Positions 29,701 to 58,629 of a stretch of DNA of 64,000 nt are shown one piece after another. The notes under the pieces were generated by a model. It had not been told where the DNA came from and did no database searches. It saw nothing but the letters and a program-made list of their open reading frames with translations. Within the stretch, counting starts at the first letter, position 1. Each line of letters starts with the position of its first letter. The stretch is from Arthrobacter globiformis (GTDB taxonomy: Bacteria > Actinomycetota > Actinomycetes > Actinomycetales > Micrococcaceae): contig NZ_JAUSZX010000001.1 of NCBI RefSeq assembly GCF_030818015.1, positions 3,844,001-3,908,000 of the forward strand. The letters run 5' to 3'. The position numbers and the translations under genes were made by a program.

Positions 29701-29753
29701 GGTGGCAGATGAGGGATTCGAACCCCCGTAGGCGTTGCCAGCTGATTTACAGT
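29701..29753 (-). repeat. attL: 3' part of tRNA-Tyr (53-bp direct repeat)
   Basis: Identical over 53 bp to 58577-58629. It covers the 3' part of tRNA-Tyr from the anticodon loop through the variable arm, T-arm and acceptor 3' strand. The 5' half is absent, so it is not a functional tRNA. It marks the left end of the island. Confidence 0.95.
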
Positions 29754-30230
29754 TACAGTGCCCGGGTTTTGACCACTGCCACTCAATGATGTCTAGTTCT
29801 GTCGTTGCAGCCCAGAGGCGCTTGACAGTCCATTCGGTGGTACTTCAAACCGGCTCGTGATCATGAGTGTGTCTACACTTTGTCCACACTGCGACGGCTT
29901 GTCCCGACATTCATGCGCAGTTGTTCCGCTCAGGAACGAGACACGGATGCCGATAAGATTATGAGGACCCGCGGGGACCACCCAAGGGTCAACGTTGGGT
30001 CGTGGGGACGTCCCGGTACGGAATCAACGCCGTTGCTGCGGCACCATACATGGCCGACAGACCAGCCCCTCTTGCACTCTTGTTTGGGCAGGATGTAGCC
30101 CCCCTCTGGTTTCGCCCTATGGGAGGGGCTTCCGGGCCGGAGAGCGAGCCTAACGACAGCGGCTAATCAACTTGCGCTGGACTGGATCGCCTAACCTAAG
30201 GAGACAGGAGCACCAGCCAAAGGAGCGGCA
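29754..30230. other. 477-bp gap at the left island end
   Basis: No convincing gene. It should contain the promoter of the restriction-modification operon and the integrase-binding arm of the attachment site. No strong repeats were recognised by eye. Confidence 0.5.
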
Positions 30231-30878
30231 ATGAGTCTCAAAGAGGCAGAGAGTTTGGTCAAGTCCAAGCAACGGGTCGCCGACCACGGCGAGGTATTCA
30301 CTCCTGCGTGGATGGTCGAGGACATGCTGAGGCTCGTAAAGGATGAATCCGAGCGGATCGACGCCAGAGTCTTGGAGCCAGCCTGCGGCTCGGGTAACTT
30401 CCTGATACCGGTCCTGCTGCATAAGCTCATTACGGTGCAAGCCAAGCACGCTAAGAGCCAGTTCGAGAAGCGCCACTATGCTCTCTTCTCGCTGATGTGC
30501 ACGTATGGAATAGAGCTCTTGCCCGATAACGCTCAGGACTGTCGCGACAACCTTGCTGCGGTTTTCAATAGTTACCTTGGTGTTGAGGCAGACAACGAAT
30601 GGGCGCTTGCCGCCCGCTGGGTGCTGGCCGCCAACATCGTCCAGGGCGACGCGCTAAGTATGACTCTTCCCAACGGCCAACCCATCACATTCCCTGAGTG
30701 GGGTTATCTCGGGAAGGGCAAGTACCAACGTCGAGACTTCCGATACGCAGATCTGACCCAACGAGCATCATTCGAGGGCACCCTCTTCGGCGAGGTTGCC
30801 GAAGAGGACCTCTTCACGCCGACACGAACCCACCCAACGATGAATGTCCATCAACTCGCCGAACAGGCCACCGCGTGA
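30231..30878 (+). CDS. SAM-dependent DNA methyltransferase-like protein, small subunit
   Basis: 215 residues from ATG 30231, with AAGGAG 5 nt ahead. It has the region before motif I (HGEVFTPAWMVEDML, residues 19-33) and SAM motif I VLEPACGSGNFL (about 47-58) of N6-adenine methyltransferases of type I and type IIG systems. I see no (N/D/S)PP(Y/F) catalytic motif IV. The C-terminal WGYLGKGKYQRRDF region is of unknown role. It may be a SAM-binding subunit that works with the next gene, which has NPPY but a degenerate motif I. Stop overlaps the next start (GTGA). Confidence 0.75.
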   Translation: MSLKEAESLVKSKQRVADHGEVFTPAWMVEDMLRLVKDESERIDARVLEPACGSGNFLIPVLLHKLITVQAKHAKSQFEKRHYALFSLMCTYGIELLPDNAQDCRDNLAAVFNSYLGVEADNEWALAARWVLAANIVQGDALSMTLPNGQPITFPEWGYLGKGKYQRRDFRYADLTQRASFEGTLFGEVAEEDLFTPTRTHPTMNVHQLAEQATA

Positions 30879-32536
30879 GCAAGGCGCACCTGGTACTGCA
30901 ATCCCACAACCCCGATGTCCTTACCTGCATCGCCAATCTCTCCAACGACGAGGTCTTCACGCCGCCGGAGATGGCCAACAGGATGCTCGACATGCTTGCG
31001 ACGGCTTGGTCGGAGGCGCATGGCGGCGCCGACCTCTGGGCTGACCCAACGGCGACCTTCCTTGACCCGTTCACAAAGTCCGGCGTCTTCCTTCGCGAGA
31101 TCGTCCGCCGTTTGACCGATGGGCTGGACCCCACGATCCCAGACCTCAACGAGCGCGTAGATCACATTCTTACGCGGCAGGTCTACGGCATCGCCATCAC
31201 CGAGTTGACGGGCTACCTCGCGCGGCGAAGCGTCTACTGCTCCAGATATGCCAACGGCCCGCACTCGGTAGCGAAGTCCTTTACTACCGAGGACGGCAAC
31301 ATCTGGTTCCAACGCACCGAGCACACCTGGGGCGGCGGCAAACGCGAATCCCCGAGGGATCCGCTTAGCGGTGACGAGAAGAGCGTCGACACCACACGTA
31401 AATGCATCTACTGCGGAGCCAACGAAAAAGACTACGAGCGTGGCGCCGAGTTGGAGACCCACGCCTACGCCCTCATCCACACAAACGACGTCAAAGCTCG
31501 CACCGCCGAGCTGTTCGGAGAAGACATGCAGTTCGACGTGATCATCGGGAACCCCCCCTACCAGCTCAGCGACGGCGGCCACGGCTCCTCGGCAGCGCCG
31601 ATCTACCAGATGTTCGTCGAGAAAGCCCTCGAGCTTGATCCGCGCTTCGCGGTCTTTGTCACCCCCTCCCGCTGGTTCGCCGGTGGCAAGGGCCTCGATG
31701 AATACCGCAGGAAGATGCTGGGCGATCGCCGAATCCAGAGCATCGTGGACTACCCCAAGCTCTACGAGGCCTTCCCCGGGGTGAAGATCCGCGGCGGCGT
31801 CTCCTACTTCCTCTGGGACCGCGACCACGACGGCCCCTGCACCATCCAGACAATGTGGGACGGACAGCTCATCGGCGAACCTGTCGCCCGCGACCTCGAC
31901 ACCTATGACGTCCTAGTGCGCCGCAACGAAGCCGTCCCGATCCTCGACAAAGTCCATGCCAAGTGCGAACCCACTCTCGATGCTCGGGTCTCGAGCCAAA
32001 AGCCATTCGGGTTGCGCACGTTCGTACACGGTCAAGAGACGCGCTTGGGCCTAAAGGACCCTGTCCAGCTCTTTGGATCGCGGAAGGTGACTTGGATCGA
32101 CCGCTCGGATATCCCGGTGAACGATGGGTGGATCGATGAGTGGAAGGTCCTCATGACTCGAGTCCAGGGAACGAGCGCCGCGGTCGAGACGAAGTTCCTC
32201 TCGAAGCCCATCATCGCCGGACCTGGCACCGCGTGCACCGAGAGCTACCTCGTTGCAGGACACTTTGGGTCCGAGACCGAGGCGAAGCGCTACGCCTTGT
32301 ACTTGCGGACTCGTTTCGTACGGTTCCTGGTGTCGTTGCGGAAGTCCACGCAGGACGCTCCGAGGAACGTGTACGCGTTTGTGCCGGATGTTTCGTTGGA
32401 TCGGGAGTGGAGCGATGCGTCACTCTACAAGCGCTACGGTCTCACTCAGGACGAGATCGCATTCATCGAGTCTCAGGTCGCTGCGCATGATGGCGACCTG
32501 TTTGATGCCGACCATGATGCTGGCGACGATGACTAA
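30875..32536 (+). CDS. Eco57I-like DNA N6-adenine methyltransferase
   Basis: 553 residues from GTG 30875, inside the previous stop (GTGA overlap). It has a second copy of the EVFTPPEMANRML element (about 26-38) and a motif I-like DPFTKSGVF (about 64-72) in which the usual GSG is KSG. Catalytic motif IV is GNPPY at about 225-229. A CIYC pair lies near 177. The C-terminal half (about 290-553) is a probable target-recognition and specificity region. Adenine N6 methylation of DNA is the expected reaction. The last 8 nt overlap the helicase gene. Confidence 0.8.
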   Translation: MSKAHLVLQSHNPDVLTCIANLSNDEVFTPPEMANRMLDMLATAWSEAHGGADLWADPTATFLDPFTKSGVFLREIVRRLTDGLDPTIPDLNERVDHILTRQVYGIAITELTGYLARRSVYCSRYANGPHSVAKSFTTEDGNIWFQRTEHTWGGGKRESPRDPLSGDEKSVDTTRKCIYCGANEKDYERGAELETHAYALIHTNDVKARTAELFGEDMQFDVIIGNPPYQLSDGGHGSSAAPIYQMFVEKALELDPRFAVFVTPSRWFAGGKGLDEYRRKMLGDRRIQSIVDYPKLYEAFPGVKIRGGVSYFLWDRDHDGPCTIQTMWDGQLIGEPVARDLDTYDVLVRRNEAVPILDKVHAKCEPTLDARVSSQKPFGLRTFVHGQETRLGLKDPVQLFGSRKVTWIDRSDIPVNDGWIDEWKVLMTRVQGTSAAVETKFLSKPIIAGPGTACTESYLVAGHFGSETEAKRYALYLRTRFVRFLVSLRKSTQDAPRNVYAFVPDVSLDREWSDASLYKRYGLTQDEIAFIESQVAAHDGDLFDADHDAGDDD

Positions 32537-35123
32537 GAGCATTGACGAGCTGTTGCCGGTGAAACCGACGGCTCGGCTGAGGATTTACACGTGGTCGCCC
32601 CTCCACCCCCCGGCTGACTACACCGGACTGATCAAAATTGGTCAGACCACAAAGTCTGACGTGAACGAGCGGATTCGCGAGTCCCAAGGGCAGATGCAGC
32701 ACCCCTACGTCTTGCACGCTGATGTGCTCGCTGAGCGCGAGGATGGTTCACTCTTCCGCGACAGCGACGTACGCCAGCGTCTCATTGACAAGGGGTTCGC
32801 CAATCCCAGGTTGGGCTCCTCTCGGGAATGGGTGCGTTGCTCACCTGCGGACGTGCTGACTGCCATCTCTGAGCTGCGCACCGGTGTGGCAGTGACCGGC
32901 ACCCATCACGAGACCTTCATAATGCGGCCCGAACAGGTACGTGCCGTCGAGAAGACCTACAGCTACTACCGCGAGATCTGGAACGAGAACCCCGACGCCG
33001 TGCCGCGTTTCCTCTGGAATGCGAAGATGCGTTTCGGCAAGACTTTTGCCTCTTACCACCTCGCAAAAAAGCTCCAGGCTCGCCGGGTGCTCGTACTGAC
33101 CTTCAAGCCCGCCGTGGCAGATGCTTGGAAGGGCGATCTCGAAACGCATGCCGACTTCGACGGCTGGCAGTACCTATCTACATCGACCTTTCATGGCTTC
33201 GAATCGGCGGACTCAGGCCGTCCCCTGGTGTACTTTGGGTCGTTCCAGGATTTGTTGGGACGTGACAATCAAACCGGTGCCATCAAGGCTAAGAACGAGT
33301 GGCTGCATGCCACCAACTGGGATCTTGTGATATTCGACGAGTACCACTTCGGCGCCTGGCGAGATAGCGCAAAAGAGCTCTTCGAGGGCGAGGACGCGAC
33401 GGTCGCCAAGAAGGAGCTTGCAGCCCTGAGCCAGGATGCGCTGGCAACGTTCGACGAGGAACTCGATGAGCTCGGCAACGCCGAAGACGACTTTCTCCCC
33501 ATCACAACACGCGCATACCTCTACCTCTCGGGGACCCCGTTCAAGGCGCTGGCGACTGGGGAGTTCATCGAGGAACAGATCTTCAACTGGACCTATACGG
33601 ACGAGCAGCGTGCCAAGGTTGAGTACGCCGAAGCCCATCCCGCGGAGTGGAACCCCTACGGTGCGTTACCGGAGATGCGTCTGCTTACCTACCAGATGCC
33701 CGACGAAATCGTCGCCGTTGCGAACCAGGGAGAGTTTGACGAGTTCGACCTCAACGCATTCTTCGAAGCCGAGGGATCGGGCGCCGCAGCGGAGTTCAAG
33801 CACAAGAGCGACGTGCAGAAGTGGCTCGACATCATCCGCGGCTCGTACTTGCCCACCCAGGTCGACGCCATGCACTTAAGTAGTCGTCCTCCGTTCCCGT
33901 ACTCCGACGCGCGCTTGTTGCCATATCTTCAGCACTCGTTCTGGTTCTTGCCCAACGTTGCCGCCTGTGAGGCGATGGCCAACCTTCTGGCCGAGCGACA
34001 GAATGTCTTTTGGCACGACTACGAGGTACTCACAGTGGCGGGGCCTCATGCCGGTATCGGTTTGGCAGCACTTCCACCTGTTCGCGAGGCCATCGGGGAC
34101 GGTCATGCTACTAAGACGATCACACTCTCGTGCGGCAAGCTGACCACCGGCGTCACAGTAAAGCAGTGGTCCTCGATCCTCATGTTACGCAGCCTCAACT
34201 CTCCAGAGACCTACTTCCAGGCAGCCTTTCGAGTGCAGTCCCCATGGTCCATCAAGAATCCAAACGGTGACGATCCCAGCGAAGAAGTGGTCCTGAAACC
34301 AGCATGTTTCGTCTTCGACTTCGCTCCCACCCGAGCCCTACGTCAGATCTCCGACTACGGTTACGGACTGACTCCGGATGCCATCAACCCTGAGCATGCT
34401 GTCGCGGAACTCGTCAGCTTTCTGCCCGTATTGGCCTACGACGGCTCCAACATGACCCAGGTCGATGCCGGAGGGATCCTCGACATTGCCATGGCCGGGA
34501 CGTCGGCGACCCTATTGGCACGCAAATGGGAGTCCGCAGTCCTCGTTAACGTCGACAACGAGACGCTTCGCAAGATCATGAATAGTGAGGCAGCCATGGA
34601 AGCCGTTATGAACATCGAAGGTTTCCGTGCTCTGGGAAGCTCAATCTTCGAAACAGTCGTAAACAAGAGCGAGTCGGTCAACAGCACGAAGAAAGAGCAC
34701 GGCGACGCACTTACTCCCACGAAGAAGAAGGAGCTCAGTGCCGAGGAAAAGGACTACAAGTCCAAGAGAAAACAGATTCAAGAGAAGCTGATCAAATTCG
34801 CAACACGGATCCCAGCATTTATGTATCTCACGGACTACCGCGAGAACACCCTTCGCGACGTAATCACCAAGCTGGAGCCCGAGCTGTTCAAAGCCGTCAC
34901 TGGCCTCACGGTCGATGACTTCCATCTGCTTGTTTCACTAGGTGTCTTCAACGCAACTCATATGAACCAAGCAGTCTTCGCTTTCCGTCGCTATGAAGAC
35001 GCATCCCTGTCCTATACCGGCATCGAGTCCCACCAGGGACTGCGGCGGTTCGGGCTTTACGACACAGTGGTAGAGGTGAAGATGGAACACGATCGCCGAG
35101 AAGCGCTTCCGTCGGCATCATGA
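32529..35123 (+). CDS. GIY-YIG-like nuclease fused to a DEAD/DEAH-type helicase (restriction subunit candidate)
   Basis: 864 residues from ATG 32529, overlapping the methyltransferase stop by 8 nt; an in-frame ATG at 32514 or 32517 is possible. N-terminus: DYTGLIKIGQTTKSDVNERI (about 30-50) fits a T5orf172/GIY-YIG nuclease unit. Superfamily 2 helicase core: RFGKTFASYHLAK (about 166, motif I), FDEYHFGAW (about 269, motif II), YLSGTPFKAL (about 331, motif III), ETYFQAAFRVQSPW (about 560, motif VI region). A charged Lys/Glu region near 720-750 and an alpha-helical tail follow. ATP-driven DNA translocation with cleavage is the expected role in this restriction operon. Confidence 0.8.
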   Translation: MTKSIDELLPVKPTARLRIYTWSPLHPPADYTGLIKIGQTTKSDVNERIRESQGQMQHPYVLHADVLAEREDGSLFRDSDVRQRLIDKGFANPRLGSSREWVRCSPADVLTAISELRTGVAVTGTHHETFIMRPEQVRAVEKTYSYYREIWNENPDAVPRFLWNAKMRFGKTFASYHLAKKLQARRVLVLTFKPAVADAWKGDLETHADFDGWQYLSTSTFHGFESADSGRPLVYFGSFQDLLGRDNQTGAIKAKNEWLHATNWDLVIFDEYHFGAWRDSAKELFEGEDATVAKKELAALSQDALATFDEELDELGNAEDDFLPITTRAYLYLSGTPFKALATGEFIEEQIFNWTYTDEQRAKVEYAEAHPAEWNPYGALPEMRLLTYQMPDEIVAVANQGEFDEFDLNAFFEAEGSGAAAEFKHKSDVQKWLDIIRGSYLPTQVDAMHLSSRPPFPYSDARLLPYLQHSFWFLPNVAACEAMANLLAERQNVFWHDYEVLTVAGPHAGIGLAALPPVREAIGDGHATKTITLSCGKLTTGVTVKQWSSILMLRSLNSPETYFQAAFRVQSPWSIKNPNGDDPSEEVVLKPACFVFDFAPTRALRQISDYGYGLTPDAINPEHAVAELVSFLPVLAYDGSNMTQVDAGGILDIAMAGTSATLLARKWESAVLVNVDNETLRKIMNSEAAMEAVMNIEGFRALGSSIFETVVNKSESVNSTKKEHGDALTPTKKKELSAEEKDYKSKRKQIQEKLIKFATRIPAFMYLTDYRENTLRDVITKLEPELFKAVTGLTVDDFHLLVSLGVFNATHMNQAVFAFRRYEDASLSYTGIESHQGLRRFGLYDTVVEVKMEHDRREALPSAS

Positions 35124-35977
35124 CGACTTACACTTCGGCTGAGTTGGCCGCCCTAGCCGAGCACGTTCCCGTTGCCGCAGCGGACAAGGGACTGCTGTTC
35201 GTCGCGGATGCCGAATTCAAAAATGAGTCCGATGTGGTGCTTGGTGCAGCCACCGTTGCACTCGATGCTGCCCTGGCCATAGCCTTAGCCGTCCAAGCCC
35301 CCTTCGTCTCAGTTAGCGAAACCAGGTTCTGCGCAGAGCTGCTCCGTTCTGTGATGACAGACGAAGAGAGAAATGAGCTCCCGCGCAAGGTCGAGCGCAT
35401 CATAACTAAAGCCAGTTTTCATGAGGGCGACATCGAGGTTCTGACCCTGAAGTGGCCAGCGCAGGGGCTCATTTTCGAATGGACCGCCGGTGCAGATTGG
35501 CATGACGAGTTGTGGGACAAGCTCTCCGAAGCCACAGCAGAAGTGTCTCAGGAATCCAGCGAAGAGCTGGAAGAGGCACAAAAGGTACGCAACGAGCAGT
35601 TGCGCAAGTTCGAAGCCAAGCTCGCTGCATCCCGCGAATTCAGGGGCGCATCGGTACAAAAACGACGGGCGATCGCCGAGTCAATAGCCTTGACAATCTC
35701 TGACGACCTGGTGGACAGCTGGGGCTTTCGGATGGCCTATACCGAGGCTGGCAGGGTGGCCAAGAGAACTGCCTATGAGTACGAGCAAATATTCCCATCC
35801 CATTTCGCGGAGTTGGCCACGGAACTAGTTGAACGGCGAGACTGGCCAAGTTCCGGGACGGCAGGTGCTATGCGGGAGGCCACGCTGAAGTTTCTCATCG
35901 AGAAAGCAGACGGATATCGCCTCGGAACGGCCTTCATTGAGGAACTCATGCAGGCAGCACTGGGGCCTAAGCCCTGA
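35120..35977 (+). CDS. Unknown protein, fourth gene of the restriction-modification-like operon
   Basis: 285 residues from ATG 35120, overlapping the helicase stop (ATGA). Not recognised. It has an acidic N-terminal domain (VADAEFKNESDVVLGAATVA), a central Glu-rich helical segment (about 140-180, EESSEELEEAQKVRNEQLRK-like, possible coiled coil) and an alpha-helical C-terminus. No signal peptide or membrane segment. Translational coupling suggests it is part of the same complex, or regulates or protects it. Confidence 0.6.
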   Translation: MTTYTSAELAALAEHVPVAAADKGLLFVADAEFKNESDVVLGAATVALDAALAIALAVQAPFVSVSETRFCAELLRSVMTDEERNELPRKVERIITKASFHEGDIEVLTLKWPAQGLIFEWTAGADWHDELWDKLSEATAEVSQESSEELEEAQKVRNEQLRKFEAKLAASREFRGASVQKRRAIAESIALTISDDLVDSWGFRMAYTEAGRVAKRTAYEYEQIFPSHFAELATELVERRDWPSSGTAGAMREATLKFLIEKADGYRLGTAFIEELMQAALGPKP

Positions 35978-36001
35978 CCGGAACCTCACTCGGAAGCCCG
36001 G

Positions 36002-37291
36002 TTAATCGTCCGGACTTTCGGCCACGTCTTCCTCATGCTCATGTTCGTAGTTTCTGTCGGGCTCCCAGTCTTCCAGATCGAGAAGCGACAATTGCGGGTG
36101 GCTCCTGTTCGCAGCAGACCCAGGTTGTGGCATTCGTGTGCCGCTCGGTTCGAGTTTCGAGGGCTGGCCTTTTGGTGCAGCGCTCAGCGTCGGTGCAGCC
36201 GAGGGCTCTTCCCCCAGCAACGTTCGACGCGCATGGAATCGAAACTTAGGGTCGAGACCACAAATGTCGGTAATGAACCCGCAGACATCAGCCGCAAGCT
36301 TTGCTGCGATTGGGTCAAAGGTCCCCTGTTTGAGCGCCTGAGGGACTGGGCCAACGTCCGCAGCCGTAGCGAATGCGGTGGCCACTTCGATATATCGGAG
36401 AGAGGCTTGGAGGTGCTGCGGACGCTTGAGAAGCCGCGTAACCAATTCAAGCATTGGTCGATAATAAGAAGGCAGATGTCCCATTTCCTGTGTGCCTGCA
36501 GGACGCGCACGGTTTAGGAGAGCAGCTGTTACCCTTTTCTCTTCCAGTCCCGAAGGCCCACCAAAAAGATACTCCTGGACTGCCCTGTCGGGGTCGCCAA
36601 GAAAGCCCCCGCGAACGTATCCAGTAATACGCGTCAGACTCAGCAGGTAAAGCCAGCATAGATCAAGGACCACAGCCCGATGTGCTGGATCCCCTGGGTT
36701 AAGAAGTTTGCTAGCTTTGCTCATGTGGGCCGCAAGCTGCGTCGGATTTCTGTGAGACGCGTTCACCCAGTAATCGAACTGGCTGAAGTCGAGCAAATGA
36801 TTGAGTTTGCTGTTCAAACCGTTGAATGCACTGAGGTGGTTAGCCACGGCCCGGCGATCAAAAAGGACAGCGAGGCCCGCGGAATCACTATTGGGACTTG
36901 GATCGTGGATAGTTTGGAGTCTTTCAAGCTCAGGACTCGTGAGAATACCAATGCCAAGCCTTGCCGACAATTGCCTCGCAGCGTCAGTTACTTCGTGTTC
37001 TCGAACCAGATACGCATGGTCCGCCCCAAAGAAGTCAGCGACTCCCTTAACCCAAAACATGCGCGAGGTGCTGTCACGCCTGCTCGTCTTGCAATCGGCT
37101 ATGAGTGTGGTCAGGCGAACATCGGGTGAAATGGAGATTCCCAGGACGTCTAGATCGGTGAAAGATTGAGCGCCTCCGCGTTGGTTGGCGGCTTTGTGCC
37201 CTCGCAGCTCCACGTCCAAACGCGTTGACAATCCCATATCCCAAAAAAGGCGTCGAGTTCCCACCTTAAGCCCCAGATCAAGCTCAGACAC
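36002..37291 (-). CDS. PD-(D/E)XK nuclease-like protein
   Basis: 429 residues from GTG 37291, overlapping the upstream stop by one nucleotide (TAGTG), so it is translated with its partner. The N-terminal 80 residues carry a restriction-endonuclease-like pattern: E29, then FTDLDVLGI (D46/D48) and LIADCKTSRR (D66-C-K68), that is E...D...D-x-K as in the PD-(D/E)XK fold, in the order of strands expected. The rest is mainly alpha-helical; the last 90 residues are Pro/Ser/Ala-rich and acidic, with SLLDLEDWEPD near the end. No methyltransferase is linked. Possible defence nuclease; the call is from motif spacing alone. Confidence 0.6.
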   Translation of the reverse strand: MSELDLGLKVGTRRLFWDMGLSTRLDVELRGHKAANQRGGAQSFTDLDVLGISISPDVRLTTLIADCKTSRRDSTSRMFWVKGVADFFGADHAYLVREHEVTDAARQLSARLGIGILTSPELERLQTIHDPSPNSDSAGLAVLFDRRAVANHLSAFNGLNSKLNHLLDFSQFDYWVNASHRNPTQLAAHMSKASKLLNPGDPAHRAVVLDLCWLYLLSLTRITGYVRGGFLGDPDRAVQEYLFGGPSGLEEKRVTAALLNRARPAGTQEMGHLPSYYRPMLELVTRLLKRPQHLQASLRYIEVATAFATAADVGPVPQALKQGTFDPIAAKLAADVCGFITDICGLDPKFRFHARRTLLGEEPSAAPTLSAAPKGQPSKLEPSGTRMPQPGSAANRSHPQLSLLDLEDWEPDRNYEHEHEEDVAESPDD

Positions 37292-43348: not shown

Positions 43349-43418
43349 TTAACTGCATTCCGAAGGAAGACTGCTGGGGTTCTCACATGTGGACCACAAA
43401 AGACGCTACTGTCCAGCC

Positions 43419-48056: not shown

Positions 48057-48314
48057 GTGAGTGATGATGCGTTGCCGAAGCGTCCTAGGTTTTTGACTAT
48101 TTCGCAGGTTGCTGAGGAGCTGTGCGTTGGCCTGCCTACTGTTCGTCAGTTGTTGGAAACTGGGGAGTTGCGTGGTTTGCAGGTTGGGGGCCGGGGCTTG
48201 TGGCGTGTGGCTACTAAGGATCTTGAGGACTACATCGAGCGGGCTTACCTCATGACTGCTGAGCGCATAGCAACCGGCGCAGTGTCCGATAACGGACAGG
48301 TGCCCGACATTTGA
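48057..48314 (+). CDS. Excisionase-like/MerR-like HTH protein
   Basis: 85 residues from GTG 48057. A helix-turn-helix of the AlpA/excisionase type: LTISQVAEELCVGLPTVRQL with the wing ELRGLQVGGRGLWRVATKDL. Such small proteins bind attachment sites or control recombinase genes. It faces the serine recombinase module (48348-49439), which runs convergently, so it may serve that recombinase. Confidence 0.8.
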   Translation: MSDDALPKRPRFLTISQVAEELCVGLPTVRQLLETGELRGLQVGGRGLWRVATKDLEDYIERAYLMTAERIATGAVSDNGQVPDI

Positions 48315-48740: not shown

Positions 48741-48743
48741 CGT

Positions 48744-49446: not shown

Positions 49447-49472
49447 TTATACCAATGGTTCCTTTGGTATAA
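49447..49472 (-). promoter_or_regulatory. Inverted-repeat operator upstream of the serine recombinase
   Basis: TTATACCAA (49447-49455) and TTGGTATAA (49464-49472) form a perfect 9-bp inverted repeat with an 8-nt centre, 7 nt upstream of the start codon. Each arm contains a TATA-like element. Likely an operator or a recombinase binding site. Confidence 0.7.
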
Positions 49473-51193: not shown

Positions 51194-51219
51194 AGGAAAC
51201 AAAAGAAAGTGAGTGCGAA

Positions 51220-51705
51220 ATGAGTATTACTTCAATGAGGATCAAAGTCGAAGACGACGAGGACCTCGATGCCGCTCGCAAGGCAGCGGAAGCTACCGGC
51301 GTTTCACTGACGGAAGTCACGGCGGAGCCCACAGATGAGTTCGAGGAGCAGGTGGCGCCGATAATAGCAGTTCTTATTGGGGCTGGCGTCGTAGCAGGAG
51401 TAAAGATGGTTTTGCAATGGTGGGATCGTCGAAAAGGGGGGTTGGTGATCGACCTTCGTCCTGACGTCCCCGATATCTTCTACAGGGACAAGGATGTTCC
51501 CTACGGTTGGGTAGCGACGATACCTACTAAGGGCGGGAAGGTAACGGTCGATGTCAAAGATGATCCGGACGCGGCTGAAACCTGGATAAATAAGGTAATT
51601 GAAGCCGTCTTTAAAACAGTTGACCAAGTCACGAAAGCAGCTGAGTCCGTGCTTGGTGCCTCGAAGATCGTTGATGTGCAGGTAGCGAAGATTATCAGCC
51701 ACTAG
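51220..51705 (+). CDS. Small partner of the S8 protease, EACC1-like
   Basis: 161 residues from ATG 51220. Layout: acidic N-terminus; a Gly/Ala/Val helix (about 46-64, VAPIIAVLIGAGVVAGVKMV) ending in WWDRRKGG; then a beta-rich region (LVIDLRPDVPDIFYR; GKVTVDVKDDPD) and an amphipathic helix. This recalls the effector-associated constant component EACC1 (small proteins next to proteases and other effectors in actinobacterial conflict operons). The resemblance is by pattern, not by search. Confidence 0.55.
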   Translation: MSITSMRIKVEDDEDLDAARKAAEATGVSLTEVTAEPTDEFEEQVAPIIAVLIGAGVVAGVKMVLQWWDRRKGGLVIDLRPDVPDIFYRDKDVPYGWVATIPTKGGKVTVDVKDDPDAAETWINKVIEAVFKTVDQVTKAAESVLGASKIVDVQVAKIISH

Positions 51706-51713
51706 AATGAATG

Positions 51714-51735
51714 GCCGACGTCGATGGGCGTCGGC
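51714..51735 (+). terminator. Hairpin after the protease/partner operon
   Basis: GCCGACG (51714-51720) with CGTCGGC (51729-51735), 8 nt after the stop, followed by TATTCGTC. A weak terminator. Confidence 0.55.
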
Positions 51736-52532
51736 TATTCGTCATCATGGGACTAGCTTGTGTTGCCGTCCGGCCGACGATGCCATTGCTTGTCTCCAAG
51801 GTGGCCGGAGGTGATTAACCGAGTCAACCCCCTAATGTCTCGCAGTCGGCCTGCAGTTTGATGCACAAGTACCAACAAGCCCAGGCGTTGAAGCACATGG
51901 CAGAACCCGTCCCAGCCGAGAAATGGACGGGCATCAAGCCTCGCCCATGCGCCTGTCACGCATAAGCGTTGGACTCACCCTTCAAATCTTGCAAGTGCAC
52001 CTGTGGCCTGGTCTCCAGGCAGTTCCTTCCACGTAATGGCTGGGGGTTAGAGCAGCTACGATCACCAAGGGCAGATCCTCTCCTTTCCCCGTTCCCGCGA
52101 AGAAGTCGCAAGAACAACTACCGGCTAACAACCCGGTAGAACCAAAGGCTGCCGATCCAGATTTACAGAAGGTTCCGGGCCCCGAGCTGTTTGAAATGGC
52201 GGCAGCCTTCGTCGTCGCCGCTCTCTCCGATCACTACCTTGGAAGACCCATCACTTACCCACCTAAAACATCGGAAGTCCACGCAATCTCCAGAAAGATG
52301 CGGTAACCGTCCGCCGCCCCACTTGCCAGTGAATGCAGGCACAGGGAATGCCATGGAATCCGTCGAAAACAAGGACGCGCAAGCAATGGGTTCTGGGTTC
52401 AAGTCCAGCGGGTGTCTTGTTGGTCAGAGGTGGCCCGTGGGTAGCCGGCCGTCGGAGCCACTTGCATACAGAAAGGTGCGGGAATGGCGCGGTCGCGATC
52501 GAATTGCTGCACCTTCTCCAGCGTAAAGGCCG
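51736..52532. other. 797-bp gap with one disrupted small gene
   Basis: Mostly non-coding; the end of the converging phage-type operon lies to the right. A frameshifted plus-strand reading frame at 52036-52306 is listed separately. Confidence 0.4.
52036..52306 (+). pseudogene. Small frameshifted gene candidate (about 90 codons)
   Basis: The frame 52037-52306 is open and protein-like (for example VPGPELFEMAAAFVVAALSD and GRPITYPPKTSEVHAIS) but has no start codon at its 5' end. ATG 52036 in another frame reads M-A-G-G-stop through a run of five G (52042-52046); removing one G would join this ATG to the open frame. It is either a frameshifted gene or a sequencing error in the G run. No family recognised and no ribosome site. 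Confidence 0.4.
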
Positions 52533-52931
52533 TCAGAATCGCCGTCCCATATCCCGCGGTTCTTTCGTCCGCCATTCCTCATACGCCTTAAACCTTGCCC
52601 GATATTCCTCAACCAGTGCTATGTTGTGCTGGAACTTCTCAGGATCAATCTCGGCAGGGCCGATGAACCCATTGTCGTCTTCGAAGCCTGAACGGTTCAA
52701 TGGCTCGTAGCAGACGTCACAGGTGCCGTCGTCCGACCAAAGGGCGTCATCCCATCCGCATTCCACACCGGGTGCGCAGACGCACTCTGTGTATTTTGGG
52801 TGCGCCACGGTGCGAACCCTCACCGCATCCCAGTCAATTGAGCACGGTTCCTCCTCGAACGGCAGGGCGCATGGCTGTGTGGCATCGTCGTTCTCATAAG
52901 GCTTTGCTGCCTTCCCTATTGATGTGGCCAC
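52533..52931 (-). CDS. Small Cys-rich protein of the phage-type operon
   Basis: 132 residues from GTG 52931, with GAGGAGG 7 nt ahead. CVCAPGVEC and CDVCYEP (about 50-82) suggest a zinc-binding centre; the C-terminal part is helical (NIALVEEYRARFKAYEEW). Such small proteins are usual in actinophage early regions. Function unknown. Confidence 0.65.
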   Translation of the reverse strand: MATSIGKAAKPYENDDATQPCALPFEEEPCSIDWDAVRVRTVAHPKYTECVCAPGVECGWDDALWSDDGTCDVCYEPLNRSGFEDDNGFIGPAEIDPEKFQHNIALVEEYRARFKAYEEWRTKEPRDMGRRF

Positions 52932-53051
52932 CGCTGGTCCTCCTCGCGTACTTGGTCAGACAGCAGATATGCCAACTCACCGACAAGCAGTTCCACAAGC
53001 TCGGCCGAGCATGGTGCGCGGTTATCCGCTGCCTGTCCCTAAGCATCTGCA
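52932..53051 (-). other. Ambiguous coding stretch
   Basis: Three minus-strand frames compete. One ends CSAELVELLVGELAYLLSDQ and then stops inside the next gene's start; it looks protein-like but has only a GTG 26 codons from its end. Another (start ATG 53139) is long but rich in Cys, His and Trp. A frameshift here is possible. Confidence 0.3.
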
Positions 53052-53270
53052 TTAAGGAACAACGCGTTGAGGCGTGGCCTTGCAGGCTGGCACAGATGAG
53101 CACGTGCATATCCTTCCGCGCTTGAATGCGCTGCTGCATGCGCTCCGCTTTCCCATGGCTTTACTGGTGCCGTTAACGTCACTGACCATCATCGGTTCCT
53201 TAGTGCTGTCTATCATTGGTTCCTTACGTTTCACCCTGAGCTCAATGCCCAAGGGCTGCCGCAATCTCAC
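53052..53270 (-). CDS. Possible small protein of the phage-type operon
   Basis: 72 residues from GTG 53270, which overlaps the previous stop (53267) by 4 nt, as at the other junctions in this operon. The first 40 residues are plausible (IELRVKRKEPMIDSTKEP); the rest is Cys/Ser-rich and less so. The real product may shift frame. Confidence 0.35.
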   Translation of the reverse strand: MRLRQPLGIELRVKRKEPMIDSTKEPMMVSDVNGTSKAMGKRSACSSAFKRGRICTCSSVPACKATPQRVVP

Positions 53271-53494
53271 GCCTTGCTGCCCTTCACGAGAAGCAGATTC
53301 CTGCGGTAGCTGTACGTCCTGCCCGGCAGAGGGGTCGCGTCGATCTCAGGCGAGGTCTTATAAGCCAGCCAGGCCTCATCCCTCGTCCGAGACCAGCCCT
53401 CCAACATCCTGAACGCATCGCACTCGTCGCAGTACACTCCTGCGACGTTAGCCAGCCCAAGACAACCCAAGTTGGAACACGGAACGATCATCAA
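53267..53494 (-). CDS. Small zinc-ribbon-like protein
   Basis: 75 residues from ATG 53494, overlapping the replication-protein stop (ATGA). CSNLGCLGLANVAGVYCDEC (residues 6-25) holds two Cys pairs of zinc-ribbon spacing. Likely a small DNA- or protein-binding protein of the element's early operon. Confidence 0.65.
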   Translation of the reverse strand: MMIVPCSNLGCLGLANVAGVYCDECDAFRMLEGWSRTRDEAWLAYKTSPEIDATPLPGRTYSYRRNLLLVKGSKA

Positions 53495-54243
53495 AACTTT
53501 TGCCCCGGGTATGCCATCATCAGGACCTTGCGCGCTTGATTCTCAGTTTTCAACTGGGGAGACTCTGCCATCAACGCTTGAACCGTCGTGACGTTCTTTT
53601 CCTCGCAGAAATTCCGCCACTCAAGCCCGACCTCATCCGTGGGCCAGGCTGCAGGGTCGACTGCCAGATTTCTGCGATCACGACTTGAACTATCGGGCCC
53701 CTTAAAGCTTTCTGTCCTGAGCCTGTCCTGACCTGTCCTGTCCTGAGAATCAGCACGGATGTCAGCATGACCGTCAGCACGGATGTCAGCATGACCGTCA
53801 GCACGGATGTCAGCATCACCCTCAGCACGGATGTCAGCATGACGGGCTGCATTCGGAGTGGGGGCAAGCTGACAACCGCCAGGCAAGCAGAGCGAATGAT
53901 CCCCAGCATCATGCGAGCGCTGCCGCCGCTTGGCCTGTTTGTTGCTCTCGGTCCTATTGCGAACCCACGGAGGCGGGGCGTGATCTTCCTCCATACGATG
54001 GACGACGTAACCACCCTGATCATCGAAGAGGATGAGTCCAACATCAGTCAGCTGCTTAAGAGCTGCGTCTGGCTCGGTCACGTCAGAGCACCGCTTAGCG
54101 TCCACAGCCCGGATGTACCCATCAAAACGCTTGGTCCTGGAACAGAACTGGATCAAGCAGAGGTAATGCCACCGTGCTTCAAATGATAGGGCAGCGATTA
54201 CTGACTGCTCGGTCCATCCGTCATCCAGTCGAGTCCATGGCAT
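53491..54243 (-). CDS. Phage/ICE-type replication or helix-turn-helix protein
   Basis: 250 residues from ATG 54243. The start MPWTRLDDGWTEQ and a winged-helix-like N-terminus (about 1-90: FEARWHYLCLIQFCSRTKRF; LKQLTDVGLILFDD) are typical of replication-initiator or replisome-organiser proteins of actinophages and integrative elements. The centre has a repeated 8-residue unit (HADIRADG, four times) encoded by 24-bp tandem repeats. C-terminal helices end in QARKVLMMAYPGQKF. It is the main gene of a minus operon in which every junction overlaps by 1 or 4 nt. Confidence 0.7.
   Translation of the reverse strand: MPWTRLDDGWTEQSVIAALSFEARWHYLCLIQFCSRTKRFDGYIRAVDAKRCSDVTEPDAALKQLTDVGLILFDDQGGYVVHRMEEDHAPPPWVRNRTESNKQAKRRQRSHDAGDHSLCLPGGCQLAPTPNAARHADIRAEGDADIRADGHADIRADGHADIRADSQDRTGQDRLRTESFKGPDSSSRDRRNLAVDPAAWPTDEVGLEWRNFCEEKNVTTVQALMAESPQLKTENQARKVLMMAYPGQKF
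53751..53846. repeat. 24-bp tandem repeat within the replication-protein gene
   Basis: Four 24-bp units beginning CAGCACGGATGTCAGCAT at 53751, 53775, 53799 and 53823; the third and fourth have 2-3 changes. They encode the HADIRADG repeats. Iterated sites inside a replication gene could also be initiator-binding iterons. Confidence 0.85.
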
Positions 54244-54413
54244 TACAGCACCCGCTTACAGAGCAGTGAGTCGATTTTGCTCAACGGAACGGCCAGAACA
54301 TGCTCAACATGCCCCACTTCCATGCCACTTTGCCACGTTTCAAAGGCCTCGTAATCGTCCTGGACAGGAGTCGATGGAGGGCTGGCAGCGGAGATGATCC
54401 ACAACCTTTTCAC
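54243..54413 (-). CDS. Small protein of the element's early operon (56 residues)
   Basis: GTG 54413 overlaps the excisionase stop (GTGA) and its own TAA overlaps the replication-protein ATG by one nucleotide (TAATG). The product begins KRLWIISAASPPSTPVQDDY and ends LAVPLSKIDSLLCKRVL; it is protein-like and exactly fills the gap between two genes. No family recognised. The perfect fit of both junctions is the main evidence. Confidence 0.7.
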   Translation of the reverse strand: MKRLWIISAASPPSTPVQDDYEAFETWQSGMEVGHVEHVLAVPLSKIDSLLCKRVL

Positions 54414-54622
54414 GCCTTTGCGACCCGGGTCTCGCCCAGGAAGTCAAGAAGGTCAGCCCTGCTTACGCGGTACCTTTTGCCTACTTTGAGAACCCGAACG
54501 GGGAAGGTGCCATCCTGGAGCATGGAGTAAGCAGTGCTTCGCCCTATGCCAAGAATTGAACTCGCATCGGGTACAGCAGGCATGGTTATCGGCAATTCGT
54601 GAGGCGCAACTTGGGGGTCCAT
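54410..54622 (-). CDS. Excisionase-like HTH protein
   Basis: 70 residues from ATG 54622 (AGGA 6 nt upstream; an ATG two codons earlier is also possible). AlpA/Xis-type helix-turn-helix: SSILGIGRSTAYSMLQDG and VLKVGKRYRVSRADLLDFLG. It reads divergently from the XRE regulator and the integrase, the usual position for the directionality factor of a tyrosine integrase. First gene of the overlapping minus operon. Confidence 0.88.
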   Translation of the reverse strand: MDPQVAPHELPITMPAVPDASSILGIGRSTAYSMLQDGTFPVRVLKVGKRYRVSRADLLDFLGETRVAKA

Positions 54623-54713
54623 CCGCATTCCTTGCTGCTAGTGGTACCAGGACATAGCCAAATTCTACTCGCTTGTGCTTGTTTGACGCAGATAGTACGC
54701 GTATTGTGTTTCT
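54623..54713. promoter_or_regulatory. Divergent promoter region between xis-like and XRE genes
   Basis: 91 bp between two divergent starts. A TTGACG hexamer lies at 54683-54688 on the plus strand and a TAGAAT hexamer on the minus strand (near 54661-54666). The XRE start has no ribosome site and may be leaderless. The XRE protein probably binds here. Confidence 0.45.
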
Positions 54714-55460
54714 ATGACACAAAGGGTCTGGCAGATGCAGGTTGCTCGAAGAATCGGAGGGAACATAAAGACGGCCCGGGAGAGGTTGGGGAAGATGTCC
54801 GCTCAGAAGCTCGCAGACCTCTGCGCTGAAATTGGACACCCTATTCCCAGGGACGTCATCTCCAACCTCGAGAACGGCCGCAGAGCAACCGTTCCAATAA
54901 CCGACCTCATTGTTATCGCACAAGCCCTACATGTCCCGGCGCTAAGCCTTATTTTTGATCCCGCGGCGGCGGGCGAAGAAGTCGAAAGAGTTCCGGGCGC
55001 GAAGTGCTACCTCTGGGAGGCTTCCGACGATTTCGCCGGACATCGCAGCGCAGAGTTCAGTGGGGGTCGGACCTTTCATGAAGAGGCGTTCGCTACTTGG
55101 AAAAGGACAGAGGTCCTTCGCAGCCTGTCGAAGTGGGAGGCGGCAGCCTTCGAGTGCGTGTCCGACTCGGAAGCACTCAAGGAAGTGTGGGAAGAACAGT
55201 CTCGGATTGAAAAGCTTGCACAGAAGCGAGGCGTGGAGCCGTCATCCCTCGATCCTTGGGCGGATCAATACCAATCGGACGATGAGTATCAGGAGCAGAT
55301 CGGTGCTCTAGAAATAACGGCGAAAAGAGCACTTAACGCCATTCTTGACCACCGCCAAGAACTTCAGCGACTGCAGGTGAAGGTGTGGCCAATAACTGAC
55401 CTTTTACGTTCGCGTTATCAGGCTCTCCAAAGCGAAAGGAACAGAGGAGTAACGCAATGA
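54714..55460 (+). CDS. XRE family regulator coupled to the integrase
   Basis: 248 residues from ATG 54714. HTH: IKTARERLGKMSAQKLADLC and IPRDVISNLENGRRATVPIT (about 18-60), then a Glu-rich alpha-helical body with possible coiled coils (LKEVWEEQSRIEKLAQKRG; QELQRLQVKVWPITDLL). Its stop overlaps the integrase start (ATGA). Probably represses the divergent xis/replication operon and itself, as in integrative elements of actinobacteria. Confidence 0.85.
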   Translation: MTQRVWQMQVARRIGGNIKTARERLGKMSAQKLADLCAEIGHPIPRDVISNLENGRRATVPITDLIVIAQALHVPALSLIFDPAAAGEEVERVPGAKCYLWEASDDFAGHRSAEFSGGRTFHEEAFATWKRTEVLRSLSKWEAAAFECVSDSEALKEVWEEQSRIEKLAQKRGVEPSSLDPWADQYQSDDEYQEQIGALEITAKRALNAILDHRQELQRLQVKVWPITDLLRSRYQALQSERNRGVTQ

Positions 55461-56743
55461 ATGGCTCCGTATACAAGCGGTGCTCATGCCCGACAGCTGA
55501 CTTGCCCCTTGACCAACGAACAGGTAAGCGACGCCCGTGCTCCAAACAACACGGGTCTTGGTGGTTCCACACTCGCGGACCCGTTGACGCAGCCACTGGG
55601 AAGCCGAAGAGGATCTCACGCGGAGGATACCGGAATAAGCGGGATGCTGAAGTGGCGCTCGCAGAGGTGACAGCACAGATCAGGTCAGGGATCTGGACCG
55701 ATGACCACAGGGTGACAGTCTCCGCCTGGTTGGACGCTTGGCTGGTTCGAAAGCAAGCTAATGGCTTGAGGCCGGCCACTGTTCGCGTGTACCGCCAGCA
55801 CATAGACGACTACCTCAAACCATTCCTTGGGTCCATCCTACTCCGTGACCTGCGCCCCGGACACGTGGCCGACATGCTGGCTCGGCTGCAGACCAACCCT
55901 GGCACCGGCGGCCACAGCCTCTCCCCCAACACCCTCACACGGGTCCACGCGTGCCTTCGCTCAGCGCTGAGCACAGCCGTGAAGATGCGGCTGGTAGCTT
56001 TCAACGCTGCCCGCGACGTTGAACTTCCGAAGGTGACAAGGAAGCGTGTGAAGCCTTGGCAGCCTGCCGAGCTGGGAGCATTTCTGGACGCGGTGCAGAA
56101 CGACCGTCTGGGCGCCTTGTTCGAGACGGTGGCCGCGTCCGGGATGCGGCGAGGCGAGGCGTGCGGGCTCAGATGGGACGACCTTGACCCAGGAGCTGGT
56201 GTTATCACGGTTAGGCAGCAGTTGACCGAGCGGTCCGGTGACGACTCCGTCTGCCCGTTCTGCGGGCGCAACCACCAAGGGCTCGCGTTCGCCACTCCGA
56301 AAACCGACTCTGGTGAATACCGCAAGATCGAGTTGGATCAGGTGACCGCCGGGGTGCTGCTCCACCACCAGGTACAGCAGGGGCTGGAGAAGATGGCGTG
56401 GGGCGACGCGTACAGCGACCACGGGTTGGTGTTTTGCCGGGAGGACGGGAACCCGCTTTCTCCGAGTCACGTCACCGGCCTGTTTCATAAGCTCACCGAC
56501 GCGGTGCAACTCCCGGACGGGTTCAAGCTGCGCAGGGTGAGGCTGCATGACCTCCGCCACGGCCAGGCATCGCTGATGTTGGCTGCCGGAGTGGACATGA
56601 ACATCATCTCCAAGCGGCTTGGCCACGCCCGATCGTCGTTCACCGCCGATACTTACGCGCACATGCTGGACGGCGTGGGCAGGGACGCAGCTGAGAAAGC
56701 CGCATCGCTAATACCGCGACGCATTGTGGCCGGAAACAACTAG
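55457..56743 (+). CDS. int: Tyrosine recombinase integrase
   Basis: 428 residues from ATG 55457. An N-terminal arm-binding domain (GSWWFHTRGPVDAATGKPKR), a core-binding SAM-like domain (about 80-180), and a catalytic domain with R in ASGMRRGEACGLRW (about 228), HDLRHGQASLML (about 363), LGHARSS and the nucleophile Y in TADTYAHML (near 400). Cuts and joins at the 53-bp tRNA-Tyr core. A CPFC pair near 272 is an extra, found in some actinobacterial integrases. Only 1.8 kb from the right attachment site; it ends in a convergent 4-bp overlap with the next gene. Confidence 0.93.
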   Translation: MNGSVYKRCSCPTADLPLDQRTGKRRPCSKQHGSWWFHTRGPVDAATGKPKRISRGGYRNKRDAEVALAEVTAQIRSGIWTDDHRVTVSAWLDAWLVRKQANGLRPATVRVYRQHIDDYLKPFLGSILLRDLRPGHVADMLARLQTNPGTGGHSLSPNTLTRVHACLRSALSTAVKMRLVAFNAARDVELPKVTRKRVKPWQPAELGAFLDAVQNDRLGALFETVAASGMRRGEACGLRWDDLDPGAGVITVRQQLTERSGDDSVCPFCGRNHQGLAFATPKTDSGEYRKIELDQVTAGVLLHHQVQQGLEKMAWGDAYSDHGLVFCREDGNPLSPSHVTGLFHKLTDAVQLPDGFKLRRVRLHDLRHGQASLMLAAGVDMNIISKRLGHARSSFTADTYAHMLDGVGRDAAEKAASLIPRRIVAGNN

Positions 56744-57345
56744 AACGCCAACTCCGGCCGTTCGGGAGTAGCCGCCAAGTCACGAGTCTGAATTGCACCC
56801 TTCAGATAAGCCGCAGTACGAGCAGGAATGCCGCCCGCAGGACGATAGTTCCAATCATCAGAATCCTGAAACAACCACCGACATGCGACATCGGTGACTG
56901 ACGCGCCACGCAACTCGTTCGCGTACCACCGGGCAGCTTCCTTATTGTTGCTTGCCATTTCCCAGCGGAGTAAGAGAAGCAAGTGCTCGTCTAGTTGGCC
57001 CGACTCAAATTTTTCCGACGCTGCTACTAGAGCGGGCAGGAAGGCGCGCCAATCGACATGGGCTGCCTCAGCGCCAGTAAAACGTGCGGGCATCTCTAGG
57101 CTCGTAGAATCCTGCGGATTTGCCTCAGTCTGCGTAATGGACTTGCTGGCAGCAGCAAGGTAGTCCGATGCCCAAGATTCGAACTCAGCCACCGCAGACT
57201 TCAGCTCTAGAAAACCATCCTGAGCCGTCTTGGCTTTCTGCTGGGCCGTCAAGAGTGCTCGTCTTGCCTTCAGGTAGTTAGACAGCGCGAGCGCCAACAC
57301 CACAGCCGAAGTGAGCACCAGAAAAATCACGAGTGGAGCGTCCAT
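56740..57345 (-). CDS. Membrane-anchored coiled-coil protein of unknown function
   Basis: 201 residues from ATG 57345, with GGGGAGG 6 nt upstream. An N-terminal transmembrane helix (about 4-23, PLVIFLVLTSAVVLALALS), a coiled-coil-like basic stretch (about 24-70), then a mainly helical cytoplasmic domain (VDWRAFLPALVAASEKFESG; CRWLFQDSDDWNY). Not recognised. Last of three same-strand genes between the integrase and tRNA-Tyr. Confidence 0.65.
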   Translation of the reverse strand: MDAPLVIFLVLTSAVVLALALSNYLKARRALLTAQQKAKTAQDGFLELKSAVAEFESWASDYLAAASKSITQTEANPQDSTSLEMPARFTGAEAAHVDWRAFLPALVAASEKFESGQLDEHLLLLLRWEMASNNKEAARWYANELRGASVTDVACRWLFQDSDDWNYRPAGGIPARTAAYLKGAIQTRDLAATPERPELAF

Positions 57346-57360
57346 CTGCGTCCTCCCCTG

Positions 57361-57741
57361 CTACTTCAACTTCAAGATAATGTCGTCCAGCTTAACGTCC
57401 ATCGCTGTAGTTCTAGAGTCTATGGAAGTAGTTCTCGAGTCCATAGCTGTTGCCTTAACTTCCATGGCTGTGGTTCTAACGTCCATTGCTGCTGTCTTTG
57501 TTCCGATGTCGTTCAGATGCGTCGACAGGGCCTTCGTTACAGACCTAAGACTACTGCCAACATCCTTTGATACAGACTTCGACAGCTCAATGCTGGCATC
57601 CGCGGTCTTCGTGATGTTTTCGACAGTCTTATTTTGAGCCTTCCCGGCAAGGATGTTAGCTATAGCCGTCCCGAACGCCACAAGCCCGCTGATAACAGCT
57701 GCCCAGTCGGACCCGGTGAAGTGTTCTATATCAAAAATCAC
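57361..57741 (-). CDS. Small membrane protein with heptad repeats
   Basis: 126 residues from GTG 57741, overlapping the previous stop (GTGA). A hydrophobic segment lies at about 11-32 (DWAAVISGLVAFGTAIANIL), then a long helix with repeated TTAMDVK-like heptads (about 80-122), which should form a coiled coil. It looks like a membrane-tethered oligomerisation or spacer protein. No family recognised. Confidence 0.65.
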   Translation of the reverse strand: MIFDIEHFTGSDWAAVISGLVAFGTAIANILAGKAQNKTVENITKTADASIELSKSVSKDVGSSLRSVTKALSTHLNDIGTKTAAMDVRTTAMEVKATAMDSRTTSIDSRTTAMDVKLDDIILKLK

Positions 57742-58388
57742 GAAGCACTCTCTTCGCTGGACTCTCCCCGCTCAATGCCTTGCATGGCCCAGTCTGGGAT
57801 GGATGTCGAATCTAGTGTCTTTCTGATTCCCTGCGCTTGTGTAGCGATCTTTTCAAGGCGGTCGATGAGGCCTCTTACTGCCCGTACGGGGATCTGGAAA
57901 ACTACAGGCTCCACCCCTGCCATGGGCTCGTCGAAGTGCATTCTCGCTGTAATAAGGGGAGCAAGCTTCGTCCCGCCCTCGAAGTCCAGCACTCGCAAGT
58001 CGAGCGCAAGGCTCATTCCCTGAAAAATCGGAAGGAAGTGATCACGCTGGCGGATGCCGCTCAGCTGCTCATCTACAGCTGGATCTCCTTCGAGCAAAAG
58101 GCTCAAGTTTTCGATCTCAGCTTCAGTGAAGTCTTCGTCTGCCTGTCTGAGATCTTTCAGTACGTTCTCGCGGCCCTCTTTTTCAGCTGTGTCGTACGCC
58201 AGAGAAAAGGCGCTAACGATTCGTTTCCAGCTTGTCTCGGCTGGAAGGCGGACGCCTTCTGGTAACTCTTGCAGAGACTCGCCCATGCTCATCAGCAGGA
58301 GCTGGCGGTACTCCGGATCGATGCTTGCAGCTCCGCGGAGGGCGGCTGCAAACGAGGGTATCTCCAGCAGGTCTTTCAGTGCAGTCAT
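57738..58388 (-). CDS. Unknown soluble protein, first gene of the attR-proximal trio
   Basis: 216 residues from ATG 58388; the longer upstream frame has no support. GAGGAG lies about 11 nt ahead, a rather long spacing. Helical N-terminal half (ALKDLLEIPSFAAALRGAAS; FTEAEIENLSLLLEG) and a C-terminal half that is more alpha/beta (LALDLRVLDFEGGTKLAPLI; VVFQIPVRAVRGLIDRLEK). No catalytic motif seen. Its product is presumably made together with the two membrane proteins. Confidence 0.6.
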   Translation of the reverse strand: MTALKDLLEIPSFAAALRGAASIDPEYRQLLLMSMGESLQELPEGVRLPAETSWKRIVSAFSLAYDTAEKEGRENVLKDLRQADEDFTEAEIENLSLLLEGDPAVDEQLSGIRQRDHFLPIFQGMSLALDLRVLDFEGGTKLAPLITARMHFDEPMAGVEPVVFQIPVRAVRGLIDRLEKIATQAQGIRKTLDSTSIPDWAMQGIERGESSEESAS

Positions 58389-58527
58389 GTTGTAGCTAAC
58401 TCCTCGCGATCCGGTCCAGTGTTGCCCCGACGCTATCAAAGGGGGCGCCCCTCCTTGATAGGGGCAACAAGAATGTCAACGTTTTGTCTACAACCAAGGT
58501 GCAACGGATCACATGGCTTAACGTAAA

Positions 58528-58569
58528 AAACCCCGCCCTCCCTACGTATTCGCAGGTCAGGCGGGGTTT
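58528..58569 (-). terminator. Island-borne terminator of tRNA-Tyr
   Basis: A 10-bp stem, AAACCCCGCC (58528-58537) with GGCGGGGTTT (58560-58569); on the minus strand it is followed by a T-run and lies 9 nt beyond the tRNA 3' end. It is inside the island, so it replaces the original terminator at 29636-29678. Confidence 0.85.
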
Positions 58570-58576
58570 CCCCGTG

Positions 58577-58629
58577 GGTGGCAGATGAGGGATTCGAACC
58601 CCCGTAGGCGTTGCCAGCTGATTTACAGT
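58577..58629 (-). repeat. attR: 53-bp direct repeat within tRNA-Tyr
   Basis: Perfect copy of 29701-29753. It runs from the anticodon loop to 2 nt beyond the mature 3' end. The crossover therefore leaves an intact tRNA. Confidence 0.95.

Follow-up and report, generated by a model that had tools for sequence, protein, structure and literature searches.

The DNA analysed here is a 64,000-nucleotide stretch of the Arthrobacter globiformis genome (contig NZ_JAUSZX010000001.1, positions 3,844,001 to 3,908,000), hereafter the window, in which a 28.9-kb genomic island abuts a tRNA-Tyr gene. This gene (anticodon gta; 58577-58660, minus strand) is called intact by both ARAGORN and Rfam. Its 3' part forms the right copy (attR, 58577-58629, minus strand) of a perfect 53-bp direct repeat found by sequence comparison, while the left copy (attL, 29701-29753, minus strand) is a 53-bp 3' tRNA fragment that is not called as a tRNA. 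The bases just beyond the two copies are unequal (T/G at the left, T/C at the right). Searching the whole genome (5.09 Mb in three contigs) with the tRNA-Tyr gene returned only two matches, both of them att sites, which excludes a chance repeat. The G+C fraction is 0.568 within the block, compared with 0.671 in the left and 0.656 in the right flank in the window. Direct repeats, one of them in the 3' end of a tRNA gene, accompanied by an integrase, are the hallmarks of a tRNA-integrated island, and the 29-kb block is a site-specifically integrated element. An earlier sequence-only reading of this DNA had proposed a 28.9-kb integrative element in tRNA-Tyr, and the repeat coordinates, the tRNA call and the empty sites of relatives all agree with it. 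The att copies are identical although nothing evident constrains the left one, and this points to a recent insertion; the island is genuine and its integration probably recent. The insertion is of an ordinary, already known kind, and part of the cargo is possibly undescribed.

DNA from the tRNA gene rightwards is matched, wholly or partly, in all 59 genomes searched (the genome itself, 36 of the genus and 22 of the order). The sequence-only reading had proposed a search for empty sites, and relatives have them. Of the 29 relative loci examined, 16 have the gene at 27213-28418, which flanks the island on the left, no more than 1.5 kb from the tRNA, with a spacing that varies from about 0.13 to 1.14 kb across these 16. 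The gene is about 110 bp away in G002, the closest relative (90%), and in G029, DNA resembling 29566-29700 is joined to tRNA-Tyr with no integrase match in the adjoining 1.5 kb. The anatomy of the site and these empty sites together establish the integration. The tRNA has also received another guest: G030 carries a different, 14.4-kb element (L093, 1686-16062) that is flanked on both sides by the same 53-bp repeat and whose integrase shares 35-40% identity with that of the island, so tRNA-Tyr serves as the target of more than one element. In the 197 other genomes of the genus that were sampled, no integrase exceeds about 50% identity to that of the island; nine of these genomes have a match at E 1e-60 or better, and the best, 50% identical, lies elsewhere in its genome.

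Several smaller features surround the insertion site. A GC-rich, terminator-like hairpin, recognised as an inverted repeat (58528-58569), immediately follows the 3' end of the tRNA on the island side of attR. The terminator usual for this tRNA is found outside attL in G030, where a different hairpin adjoins the tRNA, and it is displaced by about 400 bp in G006. A terminator swap by the element cannot be claimed in general, because G036 and G028 also have a match to the inner hairpin of the window next to their tRNA. The scar of an older element had been suspected at 28434-29700, since the gap between the left-flank gene and attL is 1.27 kb as against about 110 bp from gene to tRNA in G002; it is not upheld, as the spacing varies among relatives and G029 has DNA like 29566-29700 at its tRNA. 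The lipoprotein open reading frame (ORF) within this gap (28749-29390) has no real relative among the loci compared and a single weak match, in L084. The 103 bp just left of attL (29433-29535) have copies in G006, G008, G023 and G028, at 78-83% identity, and are perhaps a fragment of a mobile element.

By homology, the right end of the island is an early module of the temperate-phage type. A tyrosine integrase and an XRE repressor candidate are read in one direction, and an AlpA-like excisionase and a replication initiator in the other; all four genes are open. The integrase is full length (55457-56743, plus strand; PF00589 E 6e-20, phrog_1 E 6e-73) and is preceded by the XRE gene (54714-55460, plus strand; PF01381 E 8e-5, at the cut-off; phrog_8 E 9e-7). 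Both lie beside the intact tRNA, where the sequence-only reading had placed them. Its excisionase-like gene needs a correction: the candidate adjoining the integrase is a 72-aa AlpA/HTH_17 protein (54410-54628, minus strand; PF12728 E 3e-11, Phage_AlpA PF05930 E 6e-5), with the 85-aa excisionase-like helix-turn-helix (HTH) protein at 48057-48314 (plus strand; PF12728 E 3e-10, phrog_66 and phrog_2907) as a second candidate. The replication-initiation gene, rep, of the mini-siphophage type (53491-54243, minus strand; phrog_3926 E 5e-8), is overlapped at its end by a small cysteine-containing ORF without a Pfam match (53267-53494, minus strand), and 53279-53666 are 69% identical to DNA of G029. 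A further small cysteine-containing ORF downstream of rep (52533-52931, minus strand) has no Pfam match and is of uncertain coding status; the overlapping ORF, too, is less secure than the other genes of the module. Three ORFs between the integrase and the tRNA (56740-57345, 57361-57741 and 57738-58439, minus strand) match no family.

The sequence-only reading saw no transfer or virion genes. Pfam and PHROGs scans of the larger ORFs agree in recognising neither, but the phage-type xis and rep had been overlooked. One way to account for this gene content is a decayed prophage, which lost its virion genes after integration and whose site then gathered defence cassettes, leaving it immobile today. 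Besides the lack of recognised virion genes, the stretch at 51706-53490, which holds little convincing coding sequence, fits such decay, as does the position of the rep family in mini-siphophages, next to genes for terminase, portal and head proteins. Against it stand the open int, xis, XRE and rep genes and the identical att copies with their suggestion of recent insertion, and we consider this history rather unlikely.

The replication gene links the module to phages. Among 7998 scored candidates its protein has 40 relatives, itself not counted, and a locus search with an alignment of 23 sequences found eight loci in named genomes (Curtobacterium, Microbacterium, Tsukamurella, Agrococcus and a Microbacteriaceae metagenome-assembled genome) and nine in IMG/VR. 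An integrase match is present in 15 of these 17 loci and is divergent to rep in 14; the XRE protein of the island is matched in two only. Downstream of rep, the viral locus L089 has genes that match the terminase, portal, major head, major tail and tape-measure families. Two or more of the L089 genes have homologues in seven of the nine viral loci (L089 included), as against one of the eight genome loci, and six of the nine viral contigs are 15.6-17.5 kb long. These mini-siphophages of about 17 kb (L082-L090) are thus like the island in that an integrase and a related replication protein are divergently encoded, and differ from it in the terminase, portal, head and tail genes present in seven of the nine loci, none of which is recognised in the island. 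The island thus has its early region in common with the mini-siphophages and with some possible satellites. The possible satellites are compact regions in G029 (L091, 4711-13461) and G086 (L092, 6808-13211), in which a rep relative has a serine recombinase and a single HK97-type capsid gene nearby; none of the mini-phage genes that served as queries has a homologue there, and it is possible that both are capsid-bearing satellites. The G029 region additionally holds a MmeI-type restriction enzyme. In L080 and L081, a rep relative near an integrase is followed by genes that look, by eye, like arsenic/metal or ArsR-type genes and not like virion genes, so cargo of other kinds may also travel with the rep module.

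This pattern invites comparison with phage satellites. In phage-inducible chromosomal islands (PICIs), a repressor and integrase stand opposite xis and rep, and structural genes are absent; the island has the same combination, judged by homology, with no structural genes recognised. If the island were such a satellite, a helper phage would induce it and package it into helper virions, and the defence cargo would act against competing phages. The sharing of rep with mini-siphophages, and the two genus genomes in which a rep relative accompanies a capsid gene and a serine recombinase, point the same way. No packaging, capsid-hijack or capsid-remodelling gene is recognised in the Pfam and PHROGs scans, however, in which several ORFs remain without a family, and 28.9 kb is large for a described satellite. 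Nor is a helper identified: the right half of the island has no DNA match, and rep no protein match, among 50,697 phage records. Searches of the viral contigs with rep alone and with XRE alone gave no match. We see the satellite as a possibility of fairly low probability. A transfer-deficient remnant of an actinomycete integrative and conjugative element (AICE) is much less probable still. AICEs too have a tRNA site, an integrase, xis and rep, but no FtsK/TraB-type translocase, the mark of an AICE, is recognised among the scanned ORFs, and in the loci seen the rep family is tied to phages and not to plasmids, with no match in 72,556 plasmid records.

Taken together, the data are probably best explained by a 28.9-kb genomic island that integrated itself at the 3' end of tRNA-Tyr and combines a phage-derived backbone with defence-type cargo. 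Its own tyrosine integrase would have inserted it there, the island's 53-bp copy of the tRNA end keeping the tRNA whole and the other copy marking attL. If the module behaves like comparable switches, relief of repression would lead to excision as a 28,876-bp circle and to replication; we infer both from the open int, xis and rep genes. The remainder of the island, for the most part nuclease and restriction cargo, would protect the host, and hence the element. With no conjugation or virion genes recognised, movement between cells would need outside help, which might come from helper-phage particles, from generalised transduction or from a conjugative element acting in trans. Most likely, then, the island excises and replicates by itself and spreads with the help of others; its activity, its way of transfer and its anti-phage function are inferences of this model.

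Several observations weigh against this model. The left-flank gene is not within 1.5 kb of the tRNA in 13 of the 29 relative loci. Four of these were followed farther out: the gene is 1.6 kb away in G028, 3.9 kb in G036 and 4.0 kb in G021, and in G030 it sits beyond the 14.4-kb element. Furthermore, the 51 bp adjoining attR on its island side (58526-58576) have matches next to the tRNA of G036 and G028. In these two genomes the neighbouring genes are ordinary-looking and lipoprotein-like and no integrase is matched, which is unexpected for purely element-borne DNA. At 28.9 kb the island exceeds the contigs of about 17 kb that share rep, making those phages poor helper candidates by size. Finally, several cargo genes have no assigned function, and for these a defence role is unproved.

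Hitcher genetic elements are described as a class that relies on the machinery of others for transfer (PMC11389934). Hitcher elements, PICIs and other satellites resemble the island in their integrase, in having no recognised transfer machinery of their own, in their control by repressor, xis and rep, and in their anti-phage cargo; the island differs in its size and in that no packaging-hijack gene is recognised and no helper identified. The Streptomyces satellites MulchRoom and MiniFlayer have encapsidation genes and lack replication genes (PMC10690885); the concept of an actinobacterial satellite is shared, whereas the gene content is reversed in the island. Defence islands integrated in tRNA genes are alike in site, in direct repeats, in an integrase at the tRNA end and in modular restriction cargo, to which this island adds, next to its integrase, an xis gene and a replication initiator of the phage type. 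Integrase islands without transfer genes are common and their way of moving is often unclear; here the replication gene ties the island to the mini-siphophage group, so that mobilisation becomes testable. This link and a conserved gene pair in the cargo, described below, are the points worth following.

The sequence-only reading took the cargo for that of a defence or conflict island. Homology bears this out for a restriction cassette and an EVE-HNH nuclease; for the rest it holds by association only. The cassette lies next to attL and consists of four plus-strand genes: a small N6-methylase-like protein of 215 aa (30231-30878; PF02384 E 2e-5), an Eco57I-type methylase (30878-32536; PF07669 E 4e-35), a protein joining a MUG113 (GIY-YIG-like) domain to a ResIII helicase (32532-35123; PF04851 E 2e-5; PADLOC IIG model E 1e-28) and a 285-aa protein of unassigned family (35120-35977) with a relative in G021. 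The MUG113 match (PF13455 E 9e-4) is below its cut-off. The predicted starts of the second and third genes, near 30878 and 32532, lie within longest ORFs that begin at 30698 and 32253, the former start being predicted from relatives. The first gene had been considered as a pseudogene, an idea rejected because homologues of the same size occur on the Corynebacterium crudilactis plasmid pCRULAC2 and in G021. Helicase and methylase match separate halves of the PADLOC model PDLC03626, as separate genes; 30231-35977 does not encode the single nuclease-helicase-methylase polypeptide of Type IIG/ISP-like enzymes. No solved structure matching the cassette helicase or methylase was found. The cassette recurs as one block in G021 (window 30117-35967, 88.8% identical over 5.85 kb), at a different genomic place with no tRNA gene in the 40 kb around it, and partly in G062, G096 and G178. 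On plasmid pCRULAC2, three of the four genes are present, with 67-78% identity at the protein level, and they are separated by a transposon region that contains two genes for streptomycin resistance. These occurrences indicate that the cargo is modular.

Next to the cassette lies the gene pair, read from the minus strand. The first gene encodes a multi-winged-helix protein (37291-38583, a start predicted from relatives within a longest ORF reaching 38802) and the second, directly after it, a predicted PD-(D/E)XK nuclease with a TDLDV...DCK motif and no family (36002-37291). At E<=0.001 the winged-helix protein has 226 other relatives among 7995 scored candidates, all from actinomycetes where an organism is named, and it is sparse: a survey of 248 genomes from the order found it in 2, and one of 396 genomes from the phylum in 3 (the present genome being counted in both). 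DNA of 36000-42100 is matched in three of 149 other genus genomes, and the matches in G082 and G005 are the gene pair. These copies, L127 in G082 and L128 in G005, show 63-64% and 51-54% protein identity, respectively. The nuclease gene directly follows the winged-helix gene in all six genomes with a clear winged-helix homologue (those of the order and phylum surveys plus G082 and G005). Three more distant nuclease loci (G273, G287 and G021) have a gene of similar size directly before the nuclease; profile comparison links this gene with the winged-helix family (probability 96%, E 2.4e-9), whereas tblastn does not. Within the nuclease, TDLDV is invariant and the (D/E)xK motif is kept in four of five aligned sequences, L109 being without the K; D46, D48 and K68 are the predicted residues of the nuclease site. 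A profile comparison of the nuclease was not used, since L104 stood on both sides and inflated the E-value.

Structure prediction gave a moderate model of the winged-helix protein (predicted local distance difference test, pLDDT, 64), whose only likenesses are of the multi-winged-helix type, with template-modelling scores by query <0.2. The low-confidence nuclease model (pLDDT 58) resembles the nuclease domains of Can2, Card1 and VC1899, in weak matches over about 75-85 residues (E about 0.2-1). PADLOC, with its database of 2023, finds no match for the pair (36002-38802) or for its relatives in G021, G287 and G474. In G021 the distant pair shares a low-GC island (L121, 278-17534) with the restriction cassette, a PDC-S71-like helicase and a DUF4238 protein, the last two with matches to PADLOC models. 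Some DNA of that island matches the HTH protein at 48057 at 55%. The conserved pair thus stands beside defence genes in two separate islands, a setting that supports, without proving, a defence role, and it is possibly a new defence cargo in a known kind of element. More speculatively, the island might represent a satellite lineage derived from mini-siphophages by swapping virion genes for a defence arsenal, with the pair as an undescribed two-gene anti-phage system in which the winged-helix protein would detect DNA or bring the nuclease to it; we doubt that this combined scenario will hold, but offer it tentatively.

The remaining cargo lies between the pair and the phage-type module. The EVE-HNH endonuclease (42353-43348, plus strand) aligns over residues 26-322 with the solved member 6yex_A (E 1.4e-24). 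Its homology to this enzyme, VcaM4I (6yex; PMC7897488), spans both domains, a likeness that covers this one island gene only. For the other genes a role is unproved: a 789-aa protein without a family, a membrane protein by its hydrophobicity as judged by eye (39644-42013, minus strand); a DUF6308 protein (43389-44141, plus strand; PF19827 E 3e-46); a pentapeptide-repeat protein (44350-45069, minus strand; PF00805 E 9e-25); a 516-aa SEC-C motif protein (45881-47431, plus strand; PF02810 E 3e-7); an Lsr2 nucleoid protein (47630-47959, plus strand; PF11774 and PF23359); a serine resolvase/invertase (48744-49439, minus strand; PF00239 E 5e-35, phrog_125); and an S8 subtilase (49850-51193, plus strand; PF00082 E 1e-12) with its 161-aa neighbour (51220-51705, plus strand), which has no family. 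A supposed likeness of this neighbour to an EACC1-type partner was dropped, as Pfam gave nothing of the kind at E up to 5. The 161-aa protein is rare, with 14 other proteins among 247 candidates.

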